Of a stretch of 64,000 nt of DNA, positions 7,459 to 42,012 are shown in pieces. Below the pieces are notes generated by a model that saw only the letters and a list, made by a program, of their open reading frames with translations, did no database searches and was not told where the DNA came from. The translations under genes and the position numbers were made by a program. Each line of letters opens with the position of its first letter. Position 1 is the first letter of the stretch. This DNA is from Eubacteriales bacterium (GTDB lineage: Bacteria > Bacillota > Clostridia > Lachnospirales > Lachnospiraceae): assembly GCA_030536575.1 (NCBI GenBank), contig JAUNPS010000002.1:62001-126000 (forward strand), given 5' to 3'.

Positions 7459-7462
7459 TTTC

Positions 7463-8071
7463 TCAGCATCCTTCCAGCAGGACATTTTTCCGAATCCATT
7501 CCACCACAGCCTGGACTCCTTCCAAATCCCGAATATTCGTAAAAACAAAGGGCCGCCCGCCCCGCATCTTTTTCGAATCCCGCTCCATCACATCCAGGCT
7601 CGCCCCCACGTAGGGCGCCAGATCAATTTTATTGATCACCAAAAGATCCGACCGCGTAATCCCAGGGCCGCCTTTTCGGGGAATCTTATCCCCTTCCGCC
7701 ACATCAATGACAAAAATCGTCGCATCCACCAGCTCCGGACTAAAGGTCGCCGACAGATTGTCGCCGCCGCTCTCAATAAACAAAATCTGAATATCCGGAA
7801 ATTTTTCCATCATTTCGTCCACAGCTTCCAGATTCATGGAGGCATCCTCCCGAATGGCCGTATGCGGGCAGCCCCCGGTTTCCACGCCAATGATCCGTTC
7901 CCGCGGAAGCACACTGTTTTTGCTCAGAAATTCCGCGTCTTCCTTCGTATAAATGTCATTGGTAATGACTCCAATGCTGTATTCTTTTGCCATGATTCGC
8001 GTCAGGCACTCAATGAGCGCGGTTTTTCCCGAACCCACCGGGCCCGCCACGCCGATTTTCACATAGGACAT
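7463..8071 (-). CDS. ureG: Urease accessory GTPase UreG
   Basis: A SIMIBI-class GTPase of 202 residues that powers nickel insertion into urease. The P-loop [10 protein letters not shown] lies at residues 10-19, and the nickel-binding Cys-Pro-His motif is present in [15 protein letters not shown], followed by ESGGDNL and the guanine-specificity motif NKIDLA. It begins 12 nt downstream of ureF with a good site (AGAGGAG). Length and motifs are typical, with no abnormality. Confidence 0.97.
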
Positions 8072-13455: not shown

Positions 13456-13456
13456 A

Positions 13457-27644: not shown

Positions 27645-29135
27645 TCAGATCTCCCACAGCGGTTCTTCGTCGTCGCTGTCCCAGAGTTCCTCGCATACCT
27701 GGTCATATTCATCGTAGTCCGTATTTTTCATTTGTTCTTCTTCCTTGCGGTTTTTCATCTTTTCCCGGATATTCCGATATACTTCTCTGGCTTTTGGTAG
27801 CGCTTTTTCTTCTGCGAAGGTCTGCATTTTTTCCATCGCTGCGGCTGCGCCGAAGACAGCTGCCGTGGCTGCGCCGGTGCCGATGATACAGGCACCCACG
27901 CTAAACAGTACAAGAAGCGGCGTGGACACCGTTTCGCCCATCAGGAAAGTATAGAGGAGCTCGGAGAATTCGATGATGCCGAATCCACAGGCGTAAAACA
28001 GGATCAGCATTACCAGGATCTCTACCACAAGCATGATCGTCTCCAGGACGGTTTCGGAAGTCGCAGCGTCTTCGTCGGAAACACGGGCGATTTCGTCGGC
28101 GGCCTGGGCCTGGGCTCCTACGTCCTGGCCAATGACTTCCGGGAAGAGGGCGAGCTGGCTGTGGATCGTGCCGTTGGCGCTGGCGATGTAGATGCTGGCG
28201 GCAGTGACGAGCCAGTGTTCTTCTTTCGTCCAGTTCACGGTTTGAGCTTCTTCCGTTTGGTCGGATTCTGCTTGGGCCGCTTCGGATTCCGCAGATTCTG
28301 CTTGGGCCGCCCCGGTTAGGTCGGACTCCGTCTGTCCGGCTTCGGCATGAGTCCCTTCTGTCTGCTCCGCCTCAAACTCTTCCGCTTCGATTTCCTCGGA
28401 CTCCATCTGTCTGGCTTCGGCATGAGTCCCTTCTGTCTGCTCCGCCTCAAACTCTTCCGCTTCGATTTCCTCGGACTCCATCTGCCTGGATTCGGCCTGG
28501 GTTCTTTCTGCCTGGACTCTTTCTGCCTGCTCCTCGGCGCTCTGTGCATTCGCGGGCTGTATCGGCTGCCCCTCTGCATTTTCCACACCGGCTCCGGCTA
28601 CCTCGGCTTCCGGCTGTCTTCGTTCACTGAACGCTTCCTCCGTCAGCTCCTCCTCGGCCGCCTTCAAAAACTGGGTCATCTCCCGTACTGCCAAAATGCA
28701 GGTCTCTCCATACAGTATTTGGTAAAGTCCTTCCTTCAGATCCTCCTCCGGAAGTTCGGCTAAAAATCGAGCCATCTCCCCGGTCATGTCGGCATATTCC
28801 AGGTCTTTATGCATGATCTGGTAAAGGCTCATGAGGAAGCCCTTTTTCTGGGCTGTGGTCATGTTCTTCGTGCATTCTTCGATCTTATCCTGGAGGAGGA
28901 TATCCACATCCCCCATCTCTTTATAATATTTGACTTCAGCGGCCCCCTGCCGGATGCCTGCCTGCATCTTCCGACAGGCCCGCTTCAGCTCCTCCGGACT
29001 CCGATCCGGGCAGATCTGATGCATCGCCTGAATCAGGTCTTCTTCCTCCACCTTTTCCCCGTCTAACAGAGAGACGAGCTGTTTTCGGATCGCTTTGATC
29101 TTTTCCATCTGTTCTTTCACTTTATCTTCTGCCAT
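27645..29135 (-). CDS. Acidic repeat protein with C-terminal membrane helices (unknown function)
   Basis: A 496-residue protein I cannot assign to a family. Residues 1-165 are helical and charged. Residues 170-300 are a low-complexity Glu/Ala/Gln/Ser segment holding two near-identical 25-residue units (core QMESEEIEAEEFEAEQTEG, DNA period 75 bp, 28343-28492). Residues of about 360-435 hold two hydrophobic helices (MLVVEILVMLILFYACGFGI and LLVLFSVGACIIGTGAATA). The C-terminus is very acidic (YDEYDQVCEELWDSDDEE). It is the last gene of the Hsp70/AAA+ cluster, 117 bp after the AAA+ gene, with an extended -10 promoter in that gap. It may be a membrane tether or client-binding component. Confidence 0.7.
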   Translation of the reverse strand: MAEDKVKEQMEKIKAIRKQLVSLLDGEKVEEEDLIQAMHQICPDRSPEELKRACRKMQAGIRQGAAEVKYYKEMGDVDILLQDKIEECTKNMTTAQKKGFLMSLYQIMHKDLEYADMTGEMARFLAELPEEDLKEGLYQILYGETCILAVREMTQFLKAAEEELTEEAFSERRQPEAEVAGAGVENAEGQPIQPANAQSAEEQAERVQAERTQAESRQMESEEIEAEEFEAEQTEGTHAEARQMESEEIEAEEFEAEQTEGTHAEAGQTESDLTGAAQAESAESEAAQAESDQTEEAQTVNWTKEEHWLVTAASIYIASANGTIHSQLALFPEVIGQDVGAQAQAADEIARVSDEDAATSETVLETIMLVVEILVMLILFYACGFGIIEFSELLYTFLMGETVSTPLLVLFSVGACIIGTGAATAAVFGAAAAMEKMQTFAEEKALPKAREVYRNIREKMKNRKEEEQMKNTDYDEYDQVCEELWDSDDEEPLWEI

Positions 29136-29197
29136 CTTTCCGCCTCCTGGTTATTCTTCAAGATAAGAGCTTCTTTCCACCCTTTGATCTTATCCTG

Positions 29198-29206
29198 ATT
29201 ATACCA
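29198..29206 (-). promoter_or_regulatory. Extended -10 promoter before the acidic repeat gene
   Basis: TGGTATAAT on the minus strand (29206-29198) is an extended -10 without a good -35. It lies 63 bp upstream of the start, in the longest gap of the cluster, so the last gene may be made separately. Confidence 0.5.
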
Positions 29207-29252
29207 GACCTTTTTTTCAAAAGTGCACCTACTCGTAAGACAATTTCAAAAA

Positions 29253-31085
29253 TCAGCGCTTTTCATTCATCTTTTTCTGCTTCTCAATAATCCTGGCACT
29301 GATCACGTCGAACAGGTAGCGGTCATAAGGGCTGTCCTCGCAGGCTTCCCGGCACTCCGGCGCGAACGCCGCACGCTCCTCATCAAATCCGGAGAACGCC
29401 AGAAAATCCTCTTCTGACGCGGAAAGATACCGGTTCTCCCGCGCTTCGAACCACATTTCTACGATATCACGCATATTTGTCTGGCCGTGGGGACGCATGT
29501 TCATCGCACACCGAATGAGCCGTTCCTCATACACTTCACAGGAATAGGGTCTTGAAACACCGGAATCCAATCTTAGTTCATTATTTACCGTGGCAACCAG
29601 CTTCGTCACATTGGCCCCGGTGAAAAACGGCCATTTCCCCGTCTTTTCGCCCAGTTCCCCGATTTGCCGTACCACCTTTCTTCCCAGTTCCCGGCTCCGA
29701 ATCTGTTCCTGAAGTTCTTCCTCGAAAAGCCGCCCTCCCGTTTCTTCATTAATGCACCAAAGCTTCTCGCACAAAATCCTGGACAATTCCGCCCCTGTCG
29801 GCATAAAAACAAAAAACCGCTCGCTGAGTCTTCCGTCTCTTAAAAGCTCCGGCGGAATCTTTCGGATACTATTTGCCGTAATAAAGGTAAAAACGGAGGC
29901 TGTCCGCTTCTGCATCCAGTCTAAAAGCTGGCCCAGCAGATTCAGTTTCACCTCATGGGTATGGTCATCGACCCGGAAAATCTTCTCCACCTCGTCGATC
30001 AGGAGAACACAGGGCGCCATGGCTTCGATTCGTTCCAGGCAACGCCGCATATTGGATTCAGATTCCCCGAAGCTGTTCGACTGAATCCTGTCAATCTGAA
30101 ATTTAATCAGCGTCGCACCATCCAGCGTCCTGGCAGCTTCCTCCGCCATAAGAGACTTTCCGGTTCCGGGTATCCCGGTGAGCAAAACGCCCTTTGGCGC
30201 TTCCACACCGTCCAAATAACGCCCCTGCTCCGGCTTCAGAAAAATGTCCCTCTGGTCTTCCAACCAGCTCTGGATTCCATCAAGTCCGACTGCCCGCTCC
30301 GCCCTGTGTTCCCTTCCGGACTTCTCATAGTCCATCATGACAATCGTGGGGTCTTTCTGCGCCGCAGTTTCCTTCTCGACGCGGATCAGCTCTTTCATCC
30401 GTTCTTCGCAGATGCGTCTGGTTTCCGGCAGGCTTGCATCCAATTCACAGCTTACGCCATATTCCCGCCGGATCGACTCCAGGATCGTGTCAATCTGATA
30501 CTCCGACAGACCTTTCAGCCTCTTCGCCACTTTCTGAAGATCCTGGTTTGACGGTTCTTTTTCCAGACGCTCCCGAACAATCTTCTGAATGTCTTCCAGA
30601 TCGATGGGGCGCATGCGGATCAGCTCGATTTCGTCTCCAAATCCATCCGGAATCAATATATGTGGAGTGGAAATCAACAGAAACGCATTTTCCGCCCACT
30701 CAGCGTCCAGAAATGCCTTAATCATCCGCTCCTGCTGCTTTTTCTCCCATATGTGAAAATCCCGCAGTGTAAAAAAGCACGCATAGCGGTAATTTCCCGG
30801 TATTTCCTCCGGCTCCCTGCGGCTTTCCGGACAGCAATACCGAAAGTAGATCTCGCTGAAGTCAAAAAAGCGTTTTTGTTCTTTTAAATAGGCATACCGA
30901 CAGCCTTTTTCTTTTTGGGACTGCAGGGGCCATTTCCCCTCCCGCTGTCTCCGGACAAACAGCTCCCAGAGCACTGCGGACTGGTTCACCGCCTGCTCGA
31001 TGATGTGTCTGTCCTCAGACTGAAAATACAAAATCCGTTTCCTTGTGTGGGAAATTGGGACGTCGATATCGTGAATGACTGTCAT
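29253..31085 (-). CDS. Ycf46-like AAA+ ATPase
   Basis: A 610-residue AAA+ protein. The N-terminal 260 residues resemble the degenerate first domain of Ycf46-type proteins (LLISTPHILIPDGFGDEIE, then LKGLSEYQIDTIL). The active module has Walker A GIPGTGKS (304-311), the FGESESNMRR segment (339-348), Walker B CVLLIDEVEK (359-368), sensor 1 FITANS (401-406) and arginines in GRLSERF (418-424). A C-terminal helical region follows. Such ATPases use ATP hydrolysis to remodel proteins, probably as a ring. It overlaps the Hsp70-like gene by ATGA, suggesting that the two proteins work together. Client unknown. Confidence 0.9.
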   Translation of the reverse strand: MTVIHDIDVPISHTRKRILYFQSEDRHIIEQAVNQSAVLWELFVRRQREGKWPLQSQKEKGCRYAYLKEQKRFFDFSEIYFRYCCPESRREPEEIPGNYRYACFFTLRDFHIWEKKQQERMIKAFLDAEWAENAFLLISTPHILIPDGFGDEIELIRMRPIDLEDIQKIVRERLEKEPSNQDLQKVAKRLKGLSEYQIDTILESIRREYGVSCELDASLPETRRICEERMKELIRVEKETAAQKDPTIVMMDYEKSGREHRAERAVGLDGIQSWLEDQRDIFLKPEQGRYLDGVEAPKGVLLTGIPGTGKSLMAEEAARTLDGATLIKFQIDRIQSNSFGESESNMRRCLERIEAMAPCVLLIDEVEKIFRVDDHTHEVKLNLLGQLLDWMQKRTASVFTFITANSIRKIPPELLRDGRLSERFFVFMPTGAELSRILCEKLWCINEETGGRLFEEELQEQIRSRELGRKVVRQIGELGEKTGKWPFFTGANVTKLVATVNNELRLDSGVSRPYSCEVYEERLIRCAMNMRPHGQTNMRDIVEMWFEARENRYLSASEEDFLAFSGFDEERAAFAPECREACEDSPYDRYLFDVISARIIEKQKKMNEKR

Positions 31086-33100
31086 AAAGGTTTCCCTCCG
31101 ATTCTGGTATCTTTTTCCTGAATCATGTGAAAATAGGGCGTCATATGCTCAACATGTTCTTTTAGGGACGGTTCCAGCGCCGTCAGAAGCTGGTCTTTGA
31201 TTTTCCCTCTGATGTTAAGCTGGCTCTGATAATCCGCTGTCAGCTCCCGGAGGATTCTGCCTGACCGGCTCCTGGCTTTTTCGAAGCAATAGGCTTTCTC
31301 GGCTAAATTTCTTGGCCTCCCCGGTCTCCACCCGTTCAAAAACCCGAATATTCTCCGCATGTGAAGATGAAGCGTCACTTCAGTTCCCAGAAAGGCATGT
31401 TTCACTGCTTCCTCGTCGATCCGAAAACAAAAGCGATCCTCAAATCCTGGGAAAAGGCTGTCAAAACGTTCCTTCAGGCATTGATTAATTTTCTCGCCGA
31501 TCCGGTCTTTCAGATACCACAATTCCAGCCCTTCCCGCACTTCTTTCCCAAGCTCCAGGTCTGCGGTGCGCTCTTTCTCAAATGCCTGTTTCCATTCCAG
31601 CAGACTGCGGTCTTTCGGATCTTTCTGCCAGGATTCCATGGTGCGTACCATCATCTGATAGGTTTCAAGAGCAACATATTTCGCCACAGTCACTTCCATG
31701 CTCCGGGCTCCTTCCGTCAGGATCTCCCGTACACACATCAAAAGTTCCTGAAACTCTCTGTTTTTCAGGACTTCGACTGCCGCCACATAAGCCAGCCCTT
31801 CCACCACCGAATAATTCGGCAGCTCTGCCATCACCGGTTCCCTTCCGAAACATTCTTTCGCCAGTCTGCGCACCTCCGGCATGGCGGAAACGCCCCCCGT
31901 GAGAATCACTTTGTCTGGAATCCGGCCATGCAGATATTTCTCCATCTGCCTTTTCGCTTCCTGAAAAATGCTTCGCCCCGCAAGATACCAGGAAGGAAAT
32001 ACCCGGACAGAGTCTTCGGAATCTGACAGGGAAGCGCTTCCTACGCGTATCGGCATCCGGTAAAGCACCTGTCCCATGAATGGCTTTTTGATAAACCAGC
32101 TTACGTACTCCTGATTTGGATCGCCGCCGGATTCCGGTTCAAAAAAGACGGCATAAAGGCCTGTATCCGTTCCATCTGTTCCTGTTTTTCCGTAGTAATC
32201 TTCTTTTTTCTTTCGAAGTTCCAGTTTATTGTAGGTGCAGACCATGGTTTCCGGCGCATGGCGGCCTTCTCCGCAATACTGCCGCAGTTTTAGGAGACGC
32301 CTGGGCCATTCCTGTTCGGGCGGTTCTTTTTCCAGGCAGAAGCATTTCAGCATCAGTTCTTCAATGCTTCCTCCACCGAAGGGGCGGCTGTATTCGCCGT
32401 CCGGAGGAATCCGGTCTTCGGTCACTAAGGTCACGTCAAAAGTGCTGGAACCACAGTCTACAATCAGGACGGTTTCGCCCCGCTGAATTCTTTTTTCGGC
32501 TTCGATCCCAGGATTTGTTTCCCGCGCAAAAGCGGCCAGCGATTCCGAAACAATCACAAGATCAATCGGCTTATCGTAACCTTCCACTTCCAATCCGTCT
32601 TTCAGAAGGTTCGCATATTCGATTTCCCGTTTTTTCCATTTTGAGCCAGCCGGACGGCCTACTACCAGAATGGTTCTTTTTTCTCTGCTGATCGCATGAG
32701 CATTATAGGCAAACAGCAGGCGGATGAACTCCTGAAAAGCCATCCGCATAATTTCTTCATAGGTATATTCATCCGGTCTTCCGTCGTCCCTTCGGTATTT
32801 TGTCCGCGCTTCATTGGTGCCGGGGCATTTTTTGAAATTGTAGTATGCCCTTCCATTCTGGAAATTCCCGATTCCCATCTTTCGGGGAAGGCTTTTATCC
32901 GTAGGAATGAACAGGACATTCGGGCATTTGTAGCCGACTCTGGTGCTGTCCGGGAACAGCGGGTCATTGGCAATCCTGCCGTCTTTCTGCCTTGCCAGAA
33001 CCGCGCTCACCTCTCCATCTCCGAAGTCCACGCCGATCAGGTTTACATCCTCGATCCGTTCCGGAATCTCCACGCCAAAACGTTCAAATAAACTTTCCAT
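31082..33100 (-). CDS. Diverged Hsp70/actin-fold ATPase
   Basis: A 672-residue protein with a DnaK-like nucleotide-binding fold: phosphate-1 loop LIGVDFGDGE (21-30), a VGRPAGSKW segment (147-154), phosphate-2 loop VLIVDCGSSTFDVTLV (211-226) and adenosine motif VILTGGVSAMPEVRRL (398-413). The residues after 430 do not look like the DnaK substrate-binding beta-sandwich; they are helical and charged with several Arg/Lys-rich stretches. So the ATPase clamp is kept but the partner-binding part is new. The start at 33100 has GGGGAGG 6 nt upstream; an ORF extension to 33265 overlaps the preceding gene. It lies between the charged helical gene and the AAA+ gene. Confidence 0.88.
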   Translation of the reverse strand: MESLFERFGVEIPERIEDVNLIGVDFGDGEVSAVLARQKDGRIANDPLFPDSTRVGYKCPNVLFIPTDKSLPRKMGIGNFQNGRAYYNFKKCPGTNEARTKYRRDDGRPDEYTYEEIMRMAFQEFIRLLFAYNAHAISREKRTILVVGRPAGSKWKKREIEYANLLKDGLEVEGYDKPIDLVIVSESLAAFARETNPGIEAEKRIQRGETVLIVDCGSSTFDVTLVTEDRIPPDGEYSRPFGGGSIEELMLKCFCLEKEPPEQEWPRRLLKLRQYCGEGRHAPETMVCTYNKLELRKKKEDYYGKTGTDGTDTGLYAVFFEPESGGDPNQEYVSWFIKKPFMGQVLYRMPIRVGSASLSDSEDSVRVFPSWYLAGRSIFQEAKRQMEKYLHGRIPDKVILTGGVSAMPEVRRLAKECFGREPVMAELPNYSVVEGLAYVAAVEVLKNREFQELLMCVREILTEGARSMEVTVAKYVALETYQMMVRTMESWQKDPKDRSLLEWKQAFEKERTADLELGKEVREGLELWYLKDRIGEKINQCLKERFDSLFPGFEDRFCFRIDEEAVKHAFLGTEVTLHLHMRRIFGFLNGWRPGRPRNLAEKAYCFEKARSRSGRILRELTADYQSQLNIRGKIKDQLLTALEPSLKEHVEHMTPYFHMIQEKDTRIGGKPL

Positions 33101-33119
33101 GATTCCTCCCCTGTCAAAT

Positions 33120-34046
33120 TCAGCGATACCAGCCTGGAAAAATCCGGCCGTAAACGGTTCTCCCCTCCTGCACATCCCGCCAGTACAGGCCGGGGTACAA
33201 GAGCTGGTAATTTCCGGCCTTTTTAAACTCCATGCGAATTTCCTCCGGAAGCTCCTTTTCTTCATACGGGAGCAGACAGAGCCTGTTCTTCGGCGTGTTT
33301 TCCCATAACCTCAGCAGCTTTTTCCCCTGTTCGATCCCAATTCGCCAGTCTTCCGTTCGAACGATCTCCGTTACCATCGGCCAGACATCCTGAACTGCCT
33401 GTTTCATGATAAAGTGCTTTTCCCGGTCTGCCAGTTTTCTTTTCAGATAGTCCTCCTGTTTCCGAAAATGCGTCTTTTTTTCCCGCAGCCACAGAAGATT
33501 TCCTTTCTGCTCCTGTCGGAAGCGCCGGATGATTTCCCGTAGTTCCTCCTGTCTGGCTTTCGAAACGGAACGGTTCCTGGCCCGCACCAGAATTTCCAAT
33601 TCCTCTCCGGTCAGTTCCGGTGTGTGAAGTTCCGAAAGATGGAACTCTTCTGCTTTTTCAAAGTCCTTTGAGTCGGTGATTCTGGGAAGAGTGAAACGGC
33701 CATGCTCCACGCTTCCGGCGCTTTGACGAAATACCTGGGTCAGTGTGTTTCTGGCATTCATGAGCTGGGAAGCATACTTTTCCGCTTCCTGTTCATGGTA
33801 AAGGGCAAATCCGGCGAACATGCTTAAAGCTTCCGCAATCTTTGGGAACAGCTCTGCGTAAGCCATCGTATCGGCTACGTAAGCGTTCCAGTCCGAAACT
33901 GCTTTCTGGTAATCGGCATAGGCGAAAAGACTCTTTTCCGCTTCCCACAAAACCTTTTCCGAATCGGCTGTTTTCCTTTTCAGAAAATCTTCGTAGTAAT
34001 CCGGCAGTGCCTGTTCTTTTTTCGCATCTTTCTGTACGGCTGTCAT
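33120..34046 (-). CDS. Charged helical protein of the Hsp70/AAA+ cluster
   Basis: A 308-residue soluble protein with no family I recognise. Residues 10-110 and 160-240 are strongly helical, with coiled-coil-like RARNRSVSKARQEELREII and KTHFRKQEDYLKRKLADRE stretches. The C-terminus ends LLYPGLYWRD...FPGWYR. The YPGLY motif recurs in the neighbouring membrane protein, which hints at a shared C-terminal fold. ATG 34046 overlaps the preceding stop by 4 nt; a longer frame to 34076 is disfavoured. It could be an adaptor for the Hsp70-like protein encoded 19 nt downstream. Confidence 0.75.
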   Translation of the reverse strand: MTAVQKDAKKEQALPDYYEDFLKRKTADSEKVLWEAEKSLFAYADYQKAVSDWNAYVADTMAYAELFPKIAEALSMFAGFALYHEQEAEKYASQLMNARNTLTQVFRQSAGSVEHGRFTLPRITDSKDFEKAEEFHLSELHTPELTGEELEILVRARNRSVSKARQEELREIIRRFRQEQKGNLLWLREKKTHFRKQEDYLKRKLADREKHFIMKQAVQDVWPMVTEIVRTEDWRIGIEQGKKLLRLWENTPKNRLCLLPYEEKELPEEIRMEFKKAGNYQLLYPGLYWRDVQEGRTVYGRIFPGWYR

Positions 34047-34819
34047 GCTCTTTCCCCCTTCCGGACTCCCCAGCATTCTTCTAAAAGACAGAAGGTCTCT
34101 CCCTGCTTTTGATACAGTCCGGGATAGACGGTGGCATAAGGGCTTCCGATCTCAAATTCCTGCTGTCTCGCGGAATTTCCCCTGAAATCCTCGTAAAACA
34201 TGGGATAAATCCCTGCATTGCAGAAAATCCGATAAATTTCCCGAATATTTTTTCGGGCGTCTCTGGCCCTGGCCTGTTCATCCATGCCAGCGGGATCTCT
34301 GTCCATATAACTTGCGGTTTCCTGAACGATTCGGTACAGCAGGGTTCCGGTCTGTTCCAGAATTTCTTTAAAAATCCGTCGGTTCTCCCATTCGCGGATC
34401 CCTTCCTGAACCGTGTGGAGCTCTTCTTCCAGTTCTTTCGGCTCCAAGGCCGCCTTTCGGGTGATAAATGCCTGCCGGTTCATGGAAACGGCCGGGAGCG
34501 AAACGGCAAAACCTTCGCAGGTCAGGCTCTTCGTTCCCAGAAGGCTGAGAAATTCGGTCTGTAAACGCCGCAGAAAACCCGCATCGTCGGGATATTCCCG
34601 TTCGATTCCGATCAATGCCTGGAAGGCCCTTGCATTTCGCATAAAAAGCCCGGCATAAACGTCATAGCTTTTCAATTCCTGAAATTCTTTTTCCAGTTCG
34701 TAGAGCTGCCCCGCCTTTTTTTTCTTCCGGCGGCGGCAAAGAACCAGCGCCAGGCACAGGACTCCGGCGAACACGGCCAACGCAATGATTCCGTTTATGA
34801 TCTGTGGTTCATTCTCCAT
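34043..34819 (-). CDS. Single-pass membrane protein of the Hsp70/AAA+ cluster
   Basis: A 258-residue protein with one N-terminal helix (IIALAVFAGVLCLALVLC, about residues 10-27) followed by RRRKKKK, so the remainder is cytoplasmic by the positive-inside rule. The cytoplasmic part is helical, with a YPMFYEDF segment and a C-terminal ATVYPGLYQKQ motif similar to the next protein's. Function unknown; it would anchor the system to the membrane. Stop overlaps the next start (ATGA). A hairpin precedes its ribosome site. Confidence 0.78.
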   Translation of the reverse strand: MENEPQIINGIIALAVFAGVLCLALVLCRRRKKKKAGQLYELEKEFQELKSYDVYAGLFMRNARAFQALIGIEREYPDDAGFLRRLQTEFLSLLGTKSLTCEGFAVSLPAVSMNRQAFITRKAALEPKELEEELHTVQEGIREWENRRIFKEILEQTGTLLYRIVQETASYMDRDPAGMDEQARARDARKNIREIYRIFCNAGIYPMFYEDFRGNSARQQEFEIGSPYATVYPGLYQKQGETFCLLEECWGVRKGERA

Positions 34820-34836
34820 GTCTTTCCCCGCTCCTT

Positions 34837-34854
34837 CCTGGCCATCTGGCCAGG
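34837..34854 (-). promoter_or_regulatory. Hairpin abutting a ribosome binding site
   Basis: CCTGGCC-AGAT-GGCCAGG (7-bp stem) is immediately followed by AAGGAGCGG, the site for the 34043-34819 gene. It may expose or protect that site in the 55-nt gap of the operon. Confidence 0.45.
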
Positions 34855-34874
34855 TCTTCGTCTGATTTGGCCTT

Positions 34875-36371
34875 TCATGATTCTATGAGGAAGCTATGTA
34901 ATGCGCAGTCGTCCAGTGTCCGATAAACCAGAAGTGTGTCCGACGCGGCCATTTCTGTGATCTTTCGGTTTTCTTTTACAAGAGGCGTCTCTTCCTCGCC
35001 TTTCCCCTCTCCGTTTCCAAAAGGAATCCGGTAGATTCCTTTTTCCCAGGCAATGAGGTAGCCGCTCTGACAAACCTCAACTGCCGCAGCTCCGGGAAAG
35101 CTCTTCCAGGCTCTTCCCTTTTTCTGCTCGGTGTGGATACTGCCTCTGGTATCCAGCCAGATCACATGCTCTTCGTAAACGCGGACACTGGCAGCCTTAC
35201 AATCGCCGGATGCTTCCGGTATGCTCCCCCTGGTAAGTGCCAGGCTCCGGTCTTCCCGGATAGCGGCGGCATGATTCAGGCCCAGGGTAAAGGCCAGCAT
35301 CCCTGACCAGCCCTGCATGTCCCAGCAATTACTCCGGATGCTTCCATCTTCGAGAAGCAGCCCGTATGTATGGCTGAACAAAGAGGCAAAAACTGCTCTT
35401 TTTTCAGGCGGTTCCATTGGATCGAGACTCCGGATCGAAAGCTCTCCCTGCTCTCCGACTGCCAAAATGCCGAATGCTTCGTCAAAGGCCCAGGATGCGG
35501 GCGGTTCCGCAAATTTCATCGAAACGGGAATCTCCTTCCCGCCGCTCTCGTAAGCGGTAAGCTTGCCGTCCCGTAGCGTCAGACAGGTATCCTCCGATAC
35601 GGTAAACCTTGGGAGAAAGTCTACATAGCAGGAGCCTTTTCGGATGGCGTAAATCCATTCTTCCGGAAATAACTGCCGGGTGAGACTGGTTCCTTCCAAT
35701 ATCAGAAGAAGCGGTGTCTTCCCATGGTGAACCAGCTTCACCAGCTCCAGAGGGGCATCTGGCTGTCCGGTGCCCTTCCAGTAAGGTAAGGTAAATTCGG
35801 GGGATTCTTCCGTCAGGTTCCATATTCCCCATTTTTGACGGCCGCTTTGTTCCAGGAGATTTTCCCGGAGAAGGCGCCTTTTCATAAATTCTATCGCGGT
35901 AAAATGGTTTAATTCTTCCAGATCCCAGTTTCCGGAAGAAAGCCGGTCTGCTTCCGGCTCGCCAATCTCCCTTCCGGCCTGGATATGCAGGAGAAGGAAA
36001 AGGCAGAGTAATGCGGTAGCTCTGGGAGAGAACGGACGGCCTCCCGACTGGATAAGTTCCCGGATCGCCTGCTGGTTCTTTTCCCAGAAGTCCGCTTTTT
36101 TCAGGCTGCCTAGCCAGGTTTTTAGTGCGTGCTCGTCAACCGTCCCGTCTTTTCGAAGGTTTCTGACCCAGGCCGGACAGGTCCAGGTTTTCGGATTCTC
36201 CAAGTAGTTCAGCAGGGCGTGAATCTGAAGCGTTTCTATGGATTTTGGGAAATCTTTCAGGGTTTCCCGGTAGGGCGCAGAAACCGGCTCAATGGCCTGC
36301 CACACACCTTTAAAGGAAAAATGGTCATACAGTACCTCTTTTCCTATGACGATAATGCCGTCCAGTTTCAT
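34875..36371 (-). CDS. RCC1-like propeller protein of the Hsp70/AAA+ cluster
   Basis: A 498-residue protein. The N-terminal 190 residues are mostly helical and unfamiliar (CPAWVRNLRKDGTVDEHALK). The C-terminal 300 residues show spaced beta-blade repeats of the type ...YGLLLEDGSIRS, HAAAIREDRSLAL and HVIWLDTRGSIHTE, which resemble RCC1/beta-propeller blades. Such propellers usually bind proteins. No signal peptide. It is joined to the upstream HTH gene by ATGA (start 36371). I infer a scaffold or sensing role; family membership is a low-similarity judgement. Confidence 0.7.
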   Translation of the reverse strand: MKLDGIIVIGKEVLYDHFSFKGVWQAIEPVSAPYRETLKDFPKSIETLQIHALLNYLENPKTWTCPAWVRNLRKDGTVDEHALKTWLGSLKKADFWEKNQQAIRELIQSGGRPFSPRATALLCLFLLLHIQAGREIGEPEADRLSSGNWDLEELNHFTAIEFMKRRLLRENLLEQSGRQKWGIWNLTEESPEFTLPYWKGTGQPDAPLELVKLVHHGKTPLLLILEGTSLTRQLFPEEWIYAIRKGSCYVDFLPRFTVSEDTCLTLRDGKLTAYESGGKEIPVSMKFAEPPASWAFDEAFGILAVGEQGELSIRSLDPMEPPEKRAVFASLFSHTYGLLLEDGSIRSNCWDMQGWSGMLAFTLGLNHAAAIREDRSLALTRGSIPEASGDCKAASVRVYEEHVIWLDTRGSIHTEQKKGRAWKSFPGAAAVEVCQSGYLIAWEKGIYRIPFGNGEGKGEEETPLVKENRKITEMAASDTLLVYRTLDDCALHSFLIES

Positions 36372-36946
36372 GGATCTTCCTCCTGGTCGTCTTCACTGAA
36401 TAAGGGCTCCTCATCCTGGGAGAGCAGCAGGGTGTCTATGCTGCAAGGGTCATAGTTCTTCTCCCGCAGGCATTTACAGATTACGTAGTCTCTCCTGTCG
36501 TCCGGTACGAAGGTGTAACCGGCGAGGGCCATCAAGTAGTTCGCCTCGTACAGATCCAGCTTCAAAACAATGCACAGCTTCAGGATAAAGGTCTTACTCG
36601 TGCGCTTTCCTTTCTGTTTAATGCGGGACCACTGATTCCGATGCATGCCGATGGCGCGGTAGACTTCGGGGTCTTTCATGTGGGCACGGTCGGTAAATTC
36701 TCCGAGGACGGTGCAGAAGTTTCGGGAGAGAGGGTGGTATTCTTCCAGTTCTTCGGTGATCTCTCTGGCAAGACTTTGGGTGCTTTTATAGGGGTGTTTT
36801 CTTTTTTCAAGTTTTTCCAGAAAAGCGTGATAGCTGGCCTGGTCAGTCTCCAGGCGGGCAGCAATGCTTTTCTGTTCTTCTTCGGTGAGGACGTCCAGAA
36901 TACGTTCCAGTAAAATCTCTTCGGTCGTTTTCAAATTTTCTTTCAC
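36368..36946 (-). CDS. Helix-turn-helix protein heading the Hsp70/AAA+ cluster
   Basis: A 192-residue acidic protein. A central XRE-like HTH is suggested by DPEVYRAIGMHRNQWSRIKQ and KTFILKLCIVLKLDLYEANYLMALAGYTF, followed by a DDRRDYVICKCLREKNYDPCSIDTLL tail, an arrangement I recall from small Firmicutes regulators linked to signalling operons. It may regulate the cluster through the palindrome in its promoter. The start is uncertain: GTG at 36946 has no spacer to a ribosome site, whereas TTG at 36934 lies about 9 nt after AAGAGGTG, so the shorter form is quite possible. Confidence 0.7.
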   Translation of the reverse strand: MKENLKTTEEILLERILDVLTEEEQKSIAARLETDQASYHAFLEKLEKRKHPYKSTQSLAREITEELEEYHPLSRNFCTVLGEFTDRAHMKDPEVYRAIGMHRNQWSRIKQKGKRTSKTFILKLCIVLKLDLYEANYLMALAGYTFVPDDRRDYVICKCLREKNYDPCSIDTLLLSQDEEPLFSEDDQEEDP

Positions 36947-36969: not shown

Positions 36970-36998
36970 ATTATACCCGTTTTCGGACGGGCAGGCAA
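36970..36998 (-). promoter_or_regulatory. Promoter of the Hsp70/AAA+ cluster with spacer palindrome
   Basis: TTGCCT (36998-36993), 17 bp, TATAAT (36975-36970) on the minus strand. The spacer contains CCCGT-CCGAAA-ACGGG, an inverted repeat between the boxes where a repressor would block polymerase. Confidence 0.65.
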
Positions 36999-37278: not shown

Positions 37279-39555
37279 TTACTGCAGCTTCCCAGCCAGA
37301 AAAATCGCAGTCGGACCATCCGCCCCGCCAATAATCGCAAGCGTATCGTTCGAAAGCCCTTCTTCCCGAAGCTTCAGAAGCTCACAGAACATTTCCAGGG
37401 AACTCCCGTATTCTTTTACGTTTTTCCCATCTGTGTGTATTTCTCTGGCCGCATCGGTGTCCCAGTAGACGGTCACCGGCTTTCCTTCATGCTCGGCTCC
37501 GCCCCACTGACCGTCATCCGGAAAGCTCCAACGGACTTCTGAAAGATTGTCAACCAGCGCCAGCAGAATCGTTCCCGCCCAGGACAATCGATTCGCATAA
37601 CCCGCCGTCCATTCTTCCGACAGTTCCTCGAACTTTACTTCCAGATAATAGGGTGCTTCTTCTGTCCCCAGCTCCATCGTAAAATCTCCCGACAGGAATC
37701 CGGCGTATTTCATCGCCCCAAGCAGCGAGCCGACCGCCGGAGCGTCTCCGATATAAGGTGTCCGGGCCTCATAAACTGCCTGCTCTTCGTCGCTGATGGC
37801 TGTTTCGGTTTCGGATTGGGAGCCGTAAGGTTCTTCTGAGAACCAGACGCTTAATACTACAGCCAATTCGGTGTTTTGTACAGCCTGGGGATTTTCCAGC
37901 AGCTCTTCGCATGTGGACGGAGCGGCCGGAAGCACGCCGTCGCCCTGCCGCCAGAAGACCAGCGGAATGTTTTGTTCCAGCGAAATGGAAAGCGTCTGGC
38001 CGTCTGCGCCGTTTCCATTTACACTGTAGTCCATGGTATCGAAAGTCAGGTTTTCCGGGAGTTTTGTGAAATATTCGGAGGTAATGCTGTATCCGCCAAT
38101 TTCAATCTCTCCCTGAAGATCCCGATGTTCTCCCAGATCCATCGCAAGCTTCAGACGGCCGCTCCCTTTCCGTGCGATTCCGCCCTGGGCAACCTGGACG
38201 GAGGCCGTCCATTCGCTTCCCATGCTTTCAGCGCCGCCTTCTTCAATCCCTCCGGCGAAAAATTTCCGTTCTTCCAGGAGCGAACCTGAGAGATAGGTCT
38301 GAATCAGAAATCCGAAGGAGCGGGCGCTTTCCGGCGCTTCGTAAGTAAATTCTGCGCCTGTGTCTCCGGCCAGGGCAGTCAAAAGGGCTTCCTGGCTGTC
38401 GGTGTTCCACTTCCATGTCACGCTTTCGGCATTTTCGGCGGCCATCGTGTTCGTGGCGCAGACGGCGAAAAGGCCGGCGCAGAAAATGCACAGAAATGCT
38501 TTCTCCCAGCGGCCGGGATTCCGGCAGTCTAATGCGTTCTGAATGCGTTTTTTGGTATTCCCTTCCCCGAAAGCCAACGCAGCCAGGTCAGGGAATCGCC
38601 TGTTTACAGCAAAGCTGTACAAGGTCTTTCCGTATTCTTTCCGCTCGTCTGCTTCCATGCTGCGGACAACATTTTCGTCACAGCTCAGTTCCATATCCCG
38701 GCTCATGCAAAAGTAGGCAGCCCAGACAAGAGGATGGCACCAGTAGATACACAGAAGCAGGAAGGCAAAGGGACGGATCAGGAAGTCCCCTCTGCGGATA
38801 TGACAGCGCTCATGAGCCAGGATCATGCGTTTCTGGTGATCCGAAAGCCGGAAAGGAATGTAGATTCTGGGACGCAGAATCCCGAAGACGAAGGGGCTTC
38901 GGATCTGATCGCATTCGAATACATTTCCTTCCAGGCGTACAGCGGCCCGAATCTTCTCCCTGGTTCTCCGGTAAGACCGGAAGGCAAGAAAAAGCATCAC
39001 AAAAATGCCTGCTGCCCACAGGATGACAACGGCGTCATAGACCGCGAAAACAGCGGCTCCCTGAAATCCATGGCCAAAAATCCAGAGACTTCGGTCGTTC
39101 TGTACATTTCCCTGGCTGATCTGAATGAAGTTCCCCATCTGGGTCAGTTTCCAGATACTCTGAAGCTTGGAAAGAGCGGTCGGAGCCGCAACAGATGAGA
39201 CGGACTCTGATTCCTGGACGGATGCGGCCGTACTCTGCACGGCGGTGTCAGAACGCTTCCCGGACAGCTCCGCGTCAGTGGCTGCACCGGATTCTTCGGA
39301 TGACGCATTTGAAACGGTTTGTTCTGTGAGACGGACTTCCTGGCTGCCGAGTCTGGTTTGATTAAAAATACTGAACGGCGTGCTGGCCGCTACCGGGCAG
39401 ACCAGCCGGAAGGCTACCGCCGCCCACAGGACATAAGAGAACACCTTCGGCGCCCTGCGAAGCAAAACCCTGGCAATCAGCACCAGCAGAATCACCAAAC
39501 TTGCGATCAGCCCCATATTCCATACATTGGCAAAAATAGTTTCGAACCCCTTCAT
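37279..39555 (-). CDS. BlaR1/MecR1-like M56 metallopeptidase receptor
   Basis: A 758-residue membrane protease-receptor. The N-terminal region has membrane helices (GLIASLVILLVLIARVLL, YVLWAAVAFRLVCPVAA, then two more) and the M56 zinc site HERCH (LAHERCHIRRGD). A further helix (FLCIFCAGLFAVCAT) precedes an extracellular domain of about 350 residues that does not resemble the beta-lactam-binding domain of true BlaR1. On signal, M56 proteins cleave or inactivate the partner repressor. Unusually, the C-terminus carries IIGGADGPTAIFLAGK, a motif familiar from sodium-pump decarboxylase beta subunits. It is 3 nt downstream of the blaI-like gene. Confidence 0.88.
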   Translation of the reverse strand: MKGFETIFANVWNMGLIASLVILLVLIARVLLRRAPKVFSYVLWAAVAFRLVCPVAASTPFSIFNQTRLGSQEVRLTEQTVSNASSEESGAATDAELSGKRSDTAVQSTAASVQESESVSSVAAPTALSKLQSIWKLTQMGNFIQISQGNVQNDRSLWIFGHGFQGAAVFAVYDAVVILWAAGIFVMLFLAFRSYRRTREKIRAAVRLEGNVFECDQIRSPFVFGILRPRIYIPFRLSDHQKRMILAHERCHIRRGDFLIRPFAFLLLCIYWCHPLVWAAYFCMSRDMELSCDENVVRSMEADERKEYGKTLYSFAVNRRFPDLAALAFGEGNTKKRIQNALDCRNPGRWEKAFLCIFCAGLFAVCATNTMAAENAESVTWKWNTDSQEALLTALAGDTGAEFTYEAPESARSFGFLIQTYLSGSLLEERKFFAGGIEEGGAESMGSEWTASVQVAQGGIARKGSGRLKLAMDLGEHRDLQGEIEIGGYSITSEYFTKLPENLTFDTMDYSVNGNGADGQTLSISLEQNIPLVFWRQGDGVLPAAPSTCEELLENPQAVQNTELAVVLSVWFSEEPYGSQSETETAISDEEQAVYEARTPYIGDAPAVGSLLGAMKYAGFLSGDFTMELGTEEAPYYLEVKFEELSEEWTAGYANRLSWAGTILLALVDNLSEVRWSFPDDGQWGGAEHEGKPVTVYWDTDAAREIHTDGKNVKEYGSSLEMFCELLKLREEGLSNDTLAIIGGADGPTAIFLAGKLQ

Positions 39556-39557
39556 AC

Positions 39558-39920
39558 TTACCCCTCCTCGTGTTCGTCAATCAGACGTCTGATCTGCTCG
39601 GCCTCCTGTCTGGAAATGGTCTTGCCCCCCAGGAACGCATTCAGGAACAGGGGCAGGGAACCGTCAAAGGTACGCTCTACAAAGTAATCGGTCTCCTGGG
39701 CCTGCACCTGGTCTTTCGGAATTCGGACACGGACGGTGGCGTCGATGTTTTCGATGTAGCCTTTTTCCGAAAGTTTTTTGATCACGGTGTAGGTAGTGGA
39801 CTTCTTCCAGCCAAGCCGTTCGCGGCAGAGTTTTACCAGTTCGCCGGAACTGACCGGGGCGTTTTCCCAGACAATCAGCATAAAACGATAATCGCTGTCA
39901 CATAGCTTTAGATACTCCAT
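39558..39920 (-). CDS. BlaI/MecI family repressor
   Basis: A 120-residue winged-helix repressor of the Penicillinase_R family: SDYRFMLIVWENAPVSSGELVKL, GWKKSTTYTVIKKLSEKGYI (recognition helix), then the dimerisation tail with FVERTFDGSLPLFLNAFLG. It should repress its own operon until cleaved through the M56 receptor. ATG 39920 follows GAAGGAGG; the longer frame to 40061 has no family similarity. Confidence 0.93.
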   Translation of the reverse strand: MEYLKLCDSDYRFMLIVWENAPVSSGELVKLCRERLGWKKSTTYTVIKKLSEKGYIENIDATVRVRIPKDQVQAQETDYFVERTFDGSLPLFLNAFLGGKTISRQEAEQIRRLIDEHEEG

Positions 39921-40014
39921 GTGTTTCCTCCTTCGTAATGTACAGTGTGCTTCGCGGGTTCCCGCGGCTGAAAGAGCCACAGGCATTTTCAAGCGCGGAA
40001 CAGTTCTATAGTCA

Positions 40015-40038
40015 TAGACTTTTTCTAAGTTTAGTCTA
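40015..40038. promoter_or_regulatory. Candidate BlaI operator dyad
   Basis: TAGACT (40015-40020) and AGTCTA (40033-40038) form a 6-12-6 inverted repeat about 100 bp upstream of the blaI-like start, in an AT-rich promoter-like zone. BlaI operators usually contain TACA/TGTA dyads, and a TCTACAACA run abuts the site. Confidence 0.4.
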
Positions 40039-40087
40039 CAACAATCGACCTGTTTTTTCAAGCTCTTTATTCTTAATATTTTCTTAG

Positions 40088-40279
40088 TTTCTCACGGTAT
40101 TAGAACAGGTGCAGAACAGATTGCAGCGGATTATTCGGCAGATGCAGAAAGCTGAGTCTGTGACTGAGGAATTGAAAGAGAATGACCAGTGGTTATGGAT
40201 TCAAAGGATGAATAGTATTTATAACAGAGCAGAGGAAATCATCCTTCGGGAATTGGTCTGCGGAGTAAAAGAAGGATAA
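40088..40279 (+). pseudogene. tnpV: TnpV-type transposon protein, C-terminal remnant
   Basis: A plus-strand frame of about 63 residues without a start codon reads NRLQRIIRQMQKAESVTEE, LKENDQWLWIQRMNSIYNRA and EEIILRELV, matching the C-terminal end of TnpV-type proteins found on Firmicutes mobile elements. The N-terminal part is missing and a stop lies just upstream. It marks an old insertion next to the Fic gene. Confidence 0.75.
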
Positions 40280-40291
40280 AAGCATAGAACG

Positions 40292-40332
40292 AGACTGGAT
40301 GTTGCTTTACAAGAGGTGGCATCCAGTCTTTT
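40292..40332 (+). terminator. Terminator after the TnpV remnant
   Basis: AGACTGGATG (40292-40301) pairs with CATCCAGTCT (40320-40329), 10 bp, followed by TTTT. It is probably left over from the transposon gene. Confidence 0.7.
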
Positions 40333-40481
40333 ATCATATGGAGTTCAAATAACAATCGCATTTTTATATTGATGGAAGTCCATTCGGCTGTGATGACAAC
40401 GGAACAATCAGAAAATAACTTCCTGTATCGGCAAAAACGAATTAATAAAGCTAAAAATTGACTGGTATTTTGCCGATGACG

Positions 40482-40490
40482 TGATATAAT
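40482..40490 (+). promoter_or_regulatory. Extended -10 promoter of the fic gene
   Basis: TGATATAAT (40482-40490) is an extended -10. A TTGACT box is present but 21 bp away. The fic ATG follows 52 bp later with AGGA-type spacing (GGAGGATAGCAA). Confidence 0.55.
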
Positions 40491-40542
40491 ATACAGTAGA
40501 TTAGCGTAGTTTTTTGATTCGATTTATGACGGAGGATAGCAA

Positions 40543-41433
40543 ATGCGATACCTTTCAGTTGCAGAAATAGCACAAAAATGGAATGTGTCAGAGCGCAGCG
40601 TAAGAAATTACTGCGCCCAAGGGCGTGTGATTGGTGCGTTCCTTACCGGTAAGACCTGGAACATTCCCGAAAATGCAGAGAAACCGGAGCGTACTAACAA
40701 GAAAAAAGAAGAACCCGTTACTCTGCTGGATATTTTGAAAGAACAGAAAGCAAGCAAATATTCTGGCGGAATTTATCATAAGACACAGATTGATTTGACA
40801 TACAACTCCAATCACATAGAAGGCAGCCGTTTGACCCATGACCAGACCAGATATATTTTTGAAACCAACACCATTGGCGTAGAGAATGAAGTGCTCAATG
40901 TGGATGATATCATCGAAACAGCAAATCACTTTCGCTGTATTGATATGATTATTGACAATGCAAAAGCGACGCTGACAGAAAAGTTTATCAAAGAGCTTCA
41001 CCTGATCCTGAAGAACGGCACCAGCGATTCCAGAAAAGATTGGTTTGCTGTCGGTGATTACAAGAAATTACCGAATGAGGTGGGCGGGATGGATACCGTC
41101 CTTCCAGAAGAAGTTGCCGATAAAATGAAAGCGTTGCTGACAAAGTATAACAGAAAAGAGGAAAAAAACTTTGAGAATATTCTGGATTTCCATGTGAAGT
41201 TTGAGCGAATCCATCCGTTCCAAGATGGCAACGGTCGTGTAGGCAGACTGATTATGTTTAAGGAATGCCTGAAATACAATATCGTTCCGTTCATCATTGA
41301 TGAGAATTTGAAAATGTTTTATTATCGTGGATTAAAGGAATGGGATCATGAGAAAGGATATCTGACAGATACCTGTCTGACGGCGCAGGATAAATATAAG
41401 GCATATTTGGATTATTTTAGGATTGCTTATTAA
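40543..41433 (+). CDS. Fic family AMPylase with N-terminal HTH
   Basis: A 296-residue protein. Residues 1-45 are an HTH (MerR/helix_turn_helix-type, SVAEIAQKWNVSERSVRNY). The Fic core has the catalytic HPFQDGNGRVGR motif (about residues 225-236), whose His is needed for transfer of AMP from ATP to a target hydroxyl. The inhibitory motif NSNHIEGSRL (about residues 88-97, S/T-x-x-x-E-G) lies N-terminal to the core, as in class II self-inhibited Fic enzymes. Target unknown. AT-richer than its neighbours and flanked by TnpV and IS200 remnants, so probably acquired. Confidence 0.93.
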   Translation: MRYLSVAEIAQKWNVSERSVRNYCAQGRVIGAFLTGKTWNIPENAEKPERTNKKKEEPVTLLDILKEQKASKYSGGIYHKTQIDLTYNSNHIEGSRLTHDQTRYIFETNTIGVENEVLNVDDIIETANHFRCIDMIIDNAKATLTEKFIKELHLILKNGTSDSRKDWFAVGDYKKLPNEVGGMDTVLPEEVADKMKALLTKYNRKEEKNFENILDFHVKFERIHPFQDGNGRVGRLIMFKECLKYNIVPFIIDENLKMFYYRGLKEWDHEKGYLTDTCLTAQDKYKAYLDYFRIAY

Positions 41434-41554
41434 AAAGTGCTTCCCAAAGTGTCAAATTAATACTTTAGATATGTTCAAAGGTCAAAGTCCAAAATCCAAA
41501 GTGCTAATGTTACTGCTCGTCCCATAGGGCGGTGTCGCAAGCATCGTTACTGGG

Positions 41555-42012
41555 CCGCTTATAAAGCGGTACTTCTCAAATCTTCTCTTCTTGATTCCTC
41601 TGCCGGCTCGTTAATATATTTCTGTACTGCTTCATCGGTTATATTACCAATTGTCTCCACGTAATATCCCCTTGCCCAGAATGCTTTATCCCACTTGCTC
41701 TGCTGTTCTGGGTATCTGTCATAAATCATCAGCGTACTCTTCCCCTTCAGGTATCTCATAAAATTGGATACACTGAGTTTGGGCGGAATCGCTACGCTCA
41801 GATGTACATGACCTACACACACTGCGCCTGCAATAATCTCCACATCTTTGTATTTGCAAAATGTACTGATTATTTTTTTACGTCTTCTCTCAGCTTCCCA
41901 TACAATACTTTCTTCTGATATTTCGGAATGAAAACGATATGGTACTGGCATTTCCATCGGGTAGATATCCTCACCGTTTCCAACTACCCTATTTTCCCCA
42001 GCATAGCTGGGG
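41555..42012 (-). mobile_element. IS200/IS605-like element (tnpA only)
   Basis: The frameshifted IS200 transposase gene is bracketed by small hairpins: CCCCAGC-ATA-GCTGGGG (41996-42012) at the 5' side and CCGCTT-ATA-AAGCGG (41555-41569) at the 3' side, as expected for the subterminal structures recognised by HUH transposases. True ends may extend a little beyond; 41434-41554 shows no gene. Confidence 0.7.
41559..41983 (-). pseudogene. tnpA: IS200-type HUH transposase, frameshifted
   Basis: The C-terminal frame (stop at 41559) holds the HUH motif GHVHLSV, PPKLSVSNFMRYLKGKS and the catalytic Tyr in GYYVETIGN. The normal N-terminus (WKCQYHIVFIPKYQKKVLY) is in another frame, entered from about 41983. 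The frames meet at a run of seven A on the minus strand (41874-41880); a -1 shift there restores KKIISTF. Either one A was lost, killing the gene, or slippage makes some full protein. The unaided C-terminal ORF (41559-41957) lacks the true N-terminus. Confidence 0.8.

Follow-up and report, generated by a model that had tools for sequence, protein, structure and literature searches.

An Hsp70-fold ATPase and a Ycf46-like AAA+ ATPase in a rare Lachnospiraceae operon with membrane proteins: a candidate nucleotide-driven switch

What might an Hsp70-fold ATPase and an AAA+ ATPase do together in one operon with membrane proteins? The question is raised by seven minus-strand genes, labeled w1 to w7, in a 64,000-nucleotide stretch of a Lachnospiraceae genome (G000:C8:62001-126000), which was analyzed as a whole and is referred to as the window. 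Their open reading frames (ORFs) are open across positions 36946–27645, and ATGA overlaps can be read directly in the sequence at 36368/36371, 34043/34046, and 31082/31085, as described in an initial annotation of this DNA. Five of the labels given there (helix-turn-helix [HTH]-like, Hsp70-like, AAA+, single-pass membrane, and acidic membrane protein) were backed by our analysis, the first of them weakly. The genes are as follows:

36368-36946, minus strand: w1, 192 residues; regulator-like, Cro/C1-type HTH
34875-36371, minus strand: w2, 498 residues; N-terminal AAA-partner domain of about 40 residues and a long C-terminal part; presumed sensor/adaptor
34043-34819, minus strand: w3, 258 residues; single-pass membrane protein of a cofactor pair
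33120-34046, minus strand: w4, 308 residues; soluble, helical, paralogue-like partner of w3
31082-33100, minus strand: w5, 672 residues; Hsp70-fold ATPase, C-terminal half without a family match
29253-31085, minus strand: w6, 610 residues; classical AAA+ ATPase, Ycf46-like
27645-29135, minus strand: w7, 496 residues; acidic and helical, with a pair of membrane segments toward the C-terminal end; putative output

We read the operon as a membrane-proximal, nucleotide-driven response switch that would most likely serve for accessory protection, such as against phages or attacks on the envelope, and we give this reading a probability of about 0.43. Its observed base consists of the gene set, a five-gene order shared with relatives, two ATPases with intact motifs, w3 and w7 with their hydrophobic segments, and relatives that have, next to an AAA+ protein of this clade, a GTPase accompanied by a membrane/soluble pair. 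Together, these features suggest an energy-driven membrane switch of a sort that we did not find described. No operon with this gene set was found in Pfam, NCBIfam, PADLOC, or the literature, the latter searched at overview level, in agreement with the initial annotation, which knew of no system with this exact set. Among w1–w7, only w5 (PF00012) and w6 (PF00004) have Pfam matches over the cut-off, and NCBIfam gave no over-cut-off match for any of the seven. Membrane segments were called throughout with a simple hydropathy window rather than with a trained predictor.

The w5 protein scores 23.3 bits against PF00012 (cut-off 20.6), and the match stops at position 377 of the 599 in the Pfam model. 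In the PDB, a profile built from w5 and the related protein at locus L013 matches the Hsp70 ATPase domains of DnaK and Hsc70 (116 sequences), the top expectation value (E) being 4e-8 to DnaK, with the match ending near DnaK residue 381 (best 60 of 116). Because the Pfam and PDB matches both stop after the ATPase part and neither detected a peptide-binding domain, we describe w5 as an Hsp70 ATPase domain without a detected peptide-binding domain. Its C-terminal half, searched alone, gave no family above the cut-off. The Hsp70 Asp, Glu, Asp, Gly, Thr, and Gly-Gly positions, which we take to belong to the phosphate and adenosine motifs, are kept in six of six aligned sequences (w5 and five relatives); this alignment left out a putatively degenerate protein of locus L108 and two broken copies at locus L149. 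The w5 relatives at L013 (E 7e-56) and L109 (E 6e-23) share only 26% and 23% identity with it.

Chaperone partners were not found next to w5. The GrpE profile PF01025 matched nothing on the contig of the window at E up to 10, and its one strong hit in genome G000 lies beside a DnaK-like gene on contig C47; no J-domain (DnaJ) match was found among w1–w7 at E up to 1. As to the gene call, the longest ORF of w5 begins at 33265 and overlaps w4, and the ATG at 33100 is preceded by GGGGAGGA and has no overlap with w4. The query used in Pfam, NCBIfam, PADLOC, and the first genome searches began at 33103 and thus carried one extra N-terminal residue.

The second ATPase, w6, matches PF00004 with E 2.9e-26 and has a Walker A (GIPGTGKS), a Walker B (LLIDEVEK), and an RDGR motif. 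We presume that Ycf46-like is the fitting name for this type of AAA+ protein; the similarity itself was established by search. The counterpart at L013 is 32% identical over 660 columns (E 8e-92). A tree was made of 23 AAA+ rows, comprising six core proteins (window, L013, L109, L108, L046, and L045), those of L047 and L048, and 15 other Ycf46-like proteins; L149, which was found later, genomes G087 and G614, and one G693 locus are not part of it. The six core proteins and those of L047 and L048 fall on one side of a branch, with support of 100/99, versus the 15 others, and w6 groups with its L013 relative and the L108 protein at 99/98. By themselves, the six core rows do not make up one side of any branch (2 changes; of 200 bootstrap trees, 0% had 1 change). 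Three rows, those of w6, L109, and L046, were flagged as long branches. Walker A and B patterns are present in nine of nine proteins of the clade and L149, and the R.GR pattern in seven of them, those of L047 and L048 lacking it.

This clade is rare. It was found in seven of 397 family genomes (G000, G105, G133, G161, G194, G600, and G623), which does not bear out the wide occurrence in Lachnospiraceae considered in the initial annotation, and in the genus of G105, it is present in one of three genomes, a patchy distribution. Relatives were drawn evenly from genomes rather than from all species, and many of these genomes are incomplete. Some loci of the clade hold an Hsp70-like gene and others a DO-GTPase2-type GTPase that has a membrane/soluble pair to itself; still others have neither. 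Relatives of w6 are also present in phages (106 records) and plasmids (978 records), none of them reaching 60% identity; 0 and 4 of these, respectively, cover 80% of w6. For w5, there was no match in phages and plasmids at E 1e-5, and a viral scan for its relatives found none.

Do the genes travel together? A search of 250 family genomes with w5 gave matches in seven at E 0.001, the source genome included, and one other (G105) matched over most of the length. The G105 locus, L013, has counterparts of w1–w6 arranged as in the window, after which come two proteins with membrane segments; w2, w3, w4, and w7 are matched only weakly there by blastp (E 0.002 to 0.013). The AAA+ profile matched 20 of 397 family genomes at E 1e-45 and added, among others, L109 in G600 and L108 in G623. 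In L109, two proteins with membrane segments and an HTH-like protein are followed by genes resembling w2 to w6, in this order, and then by a protein with an HExxH motif; it is profile matches, paralogy, and position, and not pairwise blastp, that link the w2-like and w3/w4-like genes of L109 to the window. Thus, the order w2-w3-w4-w5-w6 is kept in two other genera at low protein identity, which is more than chance would give. The initial annotation had asked whether other species carry the genes apart, with no conserved order; this is not so for w2–w6, the order of which is kept in L013 and L109. What is borne out is a conserved operon that combines two ATPases with membrane parts and what is likely a regulator.

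The searches also returned further material. The other five genomes matched by w5 were opened as loci L014–L018. Locus L014 has an Hsp70-like match at E 1.5e-52, and L149, which belongs to a sister species of G600, carries a pair of Hsp70-like genes, both preceded by a gene for a membrane protein, in addition to two truncated Hsp70-like copies, an AAA+ gene, and an HExxH protein (E 1e-9 and 7e-11 to those of L109 and L108). Applied to 321 genomes of the class at E 1e-12, the Hsp70-like profile matched two, namely the source genome and G907; in the latter (L123), a membrane protein precedes the Hsp70-like gene, and then the contig ends. At the level of the order, 107 of 392 genomes (source included) had an Hsp70 match, and among the matches listed, all except w5 were partial; the eight loci that were opened hold other Hsp70-like families or DnaK. 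A search of genome contigs with w5 found no relative, and w5 with its relative as query found one locus, L088, which is the same stretch as L013. Loci L015–L018 hold a different Hsp70-like gene that adjoins its own membrane partner.

Some features of these loci are recorded for their own sake. The truncated Hsp70-like copies of L149 lie at 13195-14584 between intact ones (profile E 1e-31 and 3e-25), which suggests duplication and decay. The HExxH proteins (L149 8621-9250, L109 11000-11689, and L108 16170-16931) form a family that was not found in the other eight stretches searched, which included the whole window and L013. An EcsC-family membrane protein (PF12787, E 5.7e-35) is encoded near the AAA+ gene of L149 at 7228-8031. 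The other clostridial Hsp70-like gene, found in L015–L018 and L090–L092 (e.g., L091 6585-9418) in two families of the order, starts with a GFDLGDAESAV-like sequence, and its upstream membrane partner ends in an RPA..KGLA-type motif.

The proteins around the ATPases were compared mostly by profiles. The w2 protein aligns with those of L013, L109, and L108 with an hhalign probability of 96.6% (E 5e-10). A short N-terminal domain is common to w2-type proteins and to proteins encoded beside other AAA+ genes: w2-type N termini versus four such AAA-adjacent proteins, which were chosen with a self-written motif pattern after AAA-adjacent proteins had been read, gave a probability of 90.6% and E 1.3e-6, the best of 50 shuffles reaching 0.037. 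The RCC1-like propeller proposed for w2 in the initial annotation is unconfirmed and is no longer claimed, as w2 has no Pfam or NCBIfam match and no profile used supports a propeller; blastp found no internal repeat within w2. WG repeats are present in the small loci L045 (eight stretches) and L046 (one), and their proteins compare with the w2 family at a probability of 1–2% and are missed by the w2-family profile at E 0.1.

For w1, the match to the Cro/C1-type HTH family PF13443 is under the cut-off (E 0.0013, 19.4 bits; cut-off 22), and the counterpart in L013 is 39% identical (blastp, E 1.6e-27). The start of w1 may be the TTG at 36934, after AGAGGTGA, instead of the GTG at 36946. In L109, a different HTH-like protein (HTH_17, E 0.018, under the cut-off) is encoded immediately before the w2-like gene. 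A further relative of w1 (E 2e-6 to w1 and 2e-8 to its L013 counterpart) is encoded at L124 6476-7009, near a Ycf46-like AAA+ gene, in another family of the phylum.

The w3 and w4 proteins look like a duplicated pair, judged by profile comparison, of which w3 would be the membrane-anchored member. It has one hydrophobic segment (residues 10–28, mean hydropathy 2.88), and w4 occupies the same position in L013 and L109. The two families compare with E 2e-4 and a probability of 47%; paralogy is clear within the relatives (E 4e-7 for the pair of L013 and 3e-5 for that of L109) and is not evident by blastp between w3 and w4 of the window (E 0.31). Of the earlier view of w4 as a charged helical protein, the helical character was retained and its standing alone was not, w4 resembling a soluble paralogue of w3. 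The AlphaFold model of w4 has a mean predicted local distance difference test score of 38 and was not used. A weak similarity to the partner family of another Hsp70-like gene was seen for w3/w4 (E 0.0062, probability 6%), with none of 60 column controls as good and alternative versions of the comparison giving E 0.008–0.6. Real GrpE, represented by two sequences only, gave E 0.18 versus w3/w4 and 0.4 versus the other Hsp70 partner family. A GrpE-like nature of w3/w4, conceived by eye from C-terminal motifs, is retained as no more than an idea, and PF01025 gives no match.

The w7 protein has a net charge of -67 and hydrophobic segments near residues 367–385 and 407–434. Its kinship with membrane proteins of the relatives is weak: blastp to the two L013 proteins in the same place gave E 0.002 and 0.005, and the profile comparison gave E 0.0012 with a probability of 19%. 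Among themselves, the two-helix proteins of L109, L108, and L046 and one of the two in L013 are related, eight of nine cross-locus pairs having E 3e-6 to 3e-25 and the ninth E 0.002; the L045 protein has no pair at 0.01, and one L047 protein reaches 0.004 only. A profile of five such proteins of the relatives finds its five members and, at E 0.1, misses those of L045, L047, and L048 and the second one of L013.

Several loci of the AAA+ clade carry a GTPase or have no Hsp70-like gene. L108 encodes the AAA+ protein together with a two-helix membrane protein and a w2-like one (E 1.5e-6); it also has, near the AAA+ gene, a DO-GTPase2 (PF19993, 29.2 bits; cut-off 27) and a paralogous pair (E 6e-27), one member of which has a membrane segment. 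L047 and L048 have the AAA+ gene, two proteins with membrane segments, GTPases related to that of L108 (hhalign E 4e-9; the L048 GTPase is under the cut-off for DO-GTPase2), a paralogous pair with one membrane segment, and, by reading, an HTH-like protein (that of L048 has no Pfam match). In L045 and L046, the AAA+ gene is accompanied by genes for a WG-repeat protein and for a protein that has membrane segments. No Hsp70-like match was found in the L045–L048 stretches at E 0.1. In the genus of the window (three genomes), G250 has the GTPase form, as assigned from searches other than that with w5, and G204 has weak AAA+ matches only. A 345-residue protein of L108 may be a degenerate Hsp70 ATPase domain, for which the indications are weak: hhalign gave E 1.3e-4 (54%) and 4e-4 (34%; best of 50 shuffles 0.15), and the two results align different stretches. 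The loci share an arrangement of a switch NTPase with anchored and soluble partners, an AAA+ ring, membrane proteins, and an HTH-like protein. Between w3/w4 and the pairs of the GTPase loci, only this arrangement is common, because homology between the pairs is unsupported (none detectable; E 0.59 and 0.12).

How does the operon compare with known systems? Kaur et al. 2020 (PMC7159879) describe GTPase-centered conflict systems in actinobacteria and firmicutes; about 14% of one system type has HSP70 and GrpE, a subset has an HSP70 domain without a peptide-binding domain, and chaperone-like NTPases are proposed to set the threshold of bacterial conflict systems. The DO-GTPase/GAP1 systems resemble the window operon in combining genes of an NTP-driven switch with membrane parts and, in some cases, an HSP70 or an HSP70 domain without a peptide-binding domain, and the relative L108 has a DO-GTPase2. 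Unlike them, the window operon centers on a classical AAA+ protein, and DO-GTPase and GAP1 are unmatched in w1–w7; we do not class it as a Kaur-type member because the defining genes are lacking. The MoxR-vWA ternary systems with β-propellers, as outlined in PMC7159879, likewise combine an AAA+ protein, a presumed sensor, and a membrane segment. Unlike in those systems, the AAA+ protein of the window is of the PF00004 type and the propeller of w2 is unconfirmed, and Pfam gave neither a vWA match nor an over-cut-off MoxR-type match in w1–w7. DnaK-type Hsp70 shares with w5 the nucleotide-binding domain with its motif residues, whereas w5 has no detected peptide-binding domain and the operon no GrpE or DnaJ match. 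Ycf46-like AAA+ proteins of other Lachnospiraceae, plasmids, and phages have the AAA+ module of w6, and some have a neighbor with the N-terminal domain of w2 (four proteins compared), but they form a separate clade from w6, and no w5 relative was found by blastp beside those opened. In the IetAS anti-phage system, IetA resembles the AAA+ core of w6 (E 1e-13), whereas the window operon has no match to a protease partner and none to IetS in PADLOC.

In the switch that we propose, w1 would control the operon, and w2 would sense a trigger and dock on the AAA+ ring via its N-terminal domain. The w5 ATPase would alternate between ATP and ADP states with the anchored cofactor w3 and the soluble cofactor w4, w6 would pull on or remodel a partner, and w7 would be the membrane output, released or assembled when the switch fires. 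Accessory protection appears likeliest because the genes are rare and patchy and because the logic resembles that of described conflict systems; that defence is the likeliest use of the operon is a judgment we would put at somewhat under even odds. If correct, an Hsp70-type ATPase would be a dedicated membrane switch instead of a general chaperone, swappable with a GTPase around one AAA+ core, and the operon would offer a direct test, in Lachnospiraceae, of the threshold role proposed for chaperone-like NTPases by Kaur et al. 2020.

Several results weigh against this proposal. PADLOC gives only AAA+ similarities for w6, that to the core of IetA being the best, and a PADLOC search with 10 proteins of the relatives gave one weak match (PDC-S51, E 0.021). 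The initial annotation had raised nearness to defence genes; none was recognized on reading the flanks, to which no dedicated search was applied. Pfam matched no nuclease, protease, or other standard effector family among w1–w7. The G+C content of the operon (0.49–0.53) is the same as that of its surroundings, and in the genus of G600, two of two genomes match, which does not look patchy. The five-protein two-helix profile misses w7 at E 0.1, Pfam gives no SLATT match for w7, and one L013 membrane protein has a weak SLATT match that is under the cut-off (E 0.0038). Finally, the 345-residue protein of L108 has no Pfam match and no Hsp70-like profile match at E 0.1.

The most serious competitor, which we nevertheless hold unlikely, is membrane protein quality control, in which w5 and w6 would pull damaged proteins out of the membrane or refold them, w3 and w7 would serve as anchors, and w1 would induce the operon under envelope stress. 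Both ATPases belong to remodeling families, w3 and w7 have membrane segments, and the top-scoring PDB chains of the AAA+ profile are extractors of the Cdc48/p97 type (best 60 of 279). However, the lack of a detected peptide-binding domain in w5 and of any over-cut-off peptidase family in the operon argues against such a role, for which presence in seven of 397 family genomes would also be unusually rare.

Returning to the response switch, a bolder form of it, which is rather doubtful, would make one AAA+ clade the constant element in a modular system of membrane immunity, with an Hsp70-fold ATPase and a DO-GTPase as interchangeable switches and duplicated anchored/soluble cofactor pairs; some of the Hsp70-fold proteins would enter the membrane via their new C-terminal half, as membrane mechanoenzymes. 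The C-terminal half also bears on a second, improbable alternative, namely membrane remodeling by dynamin or ESCRT/Vps4 logic, in which the Hsp70-like ATPase would act at the bilayer via that half and the AAA+ ring would recycle it. The most hydrophobic 19-residue stretch past residue 400 lies in the same aligned region in five of six Hsp70-like proteins and is strongly membrane-like in L123 (mean hydropathy 3.04) and in one L149 protein (2.34), the C-terminal half of which has a weak match to DUF445 (E 3.8e-4, under the cut-off). Bacterial AAA+ proteins with PspA/Snf7 are described in PMC11237479. Yet the stretch is weak in three other proteins (0.95, 1.06, and 1.42) and lacking in w5 itself, the maximum of which (1.15, at 428) lies inside the ATPase domain. 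Neither a dynamin nor a Snf7 family was matched.

Even less probable is direct membership in the DO-GTPase/GAP1 conflict systems with loss of the GTPase. The DO-GTPase2 near the same AAA+ type in L108 and the related GTPases of L047 and L048 fit this idea; against it, neither defining family is matched in w1–w7, GAP1 is also unmatched in the scanned proteins of L108, L047, and L048 (six, three, and three), and PMC7159879, in its available sections, names MoxR and FtsH and not the AAA+ type of w6. That unrelated genes are neighbors by chance is hardly credible: overlaps at just three of six gene junctions and a w7 that lies 117 bases away with weak kinship would allow it, but for w2–w6, it is contradicted by the conserved order, the same in three genera despite low protein identity and flanks that differ by reading.

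Two smaller features complete the layout of the operon:

36970-36998, minus strand: promoter-like site before w1, TTGCCT-17-TATAAT, 10 of 12
28321-28514, no strand assigned: tandem repeat of 75 bases in the acidic stretch of w7, 25 codons per unit, 2.6 copies, 92% matches

Sigma-70-like sites across the region are not above chance (six found versus 6.9 expected), and the promoter scan found none in the 117-base gap that precedes w7. The flanks look ordinary by reading. Downstream lies what we take to be a nadA/nadB/nadC-like set, and directly upstream, on the same strand, genes at 37279-40061 encode, by reading, a membrane peptidase and a repressor that we presume to be a BlaR1/BlaI-like pair. 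Around a gene that reads as Fic-like (40543-41433), the G+C content dips to 0.40 (window positions 40001-42000), and it is 0.44–0.57 in the remaining 2-kb steps of the window. L049 and L111 have tandem Ycf46-like AAA+ genes, one L049 neighbor having the short N-terminal domain of w2. Near-identical Ycf46-like AAA+ genes are present in L055–L058, and one neighbor in L057 begins with what is presumably the motif of a tubulin-type GTPase.

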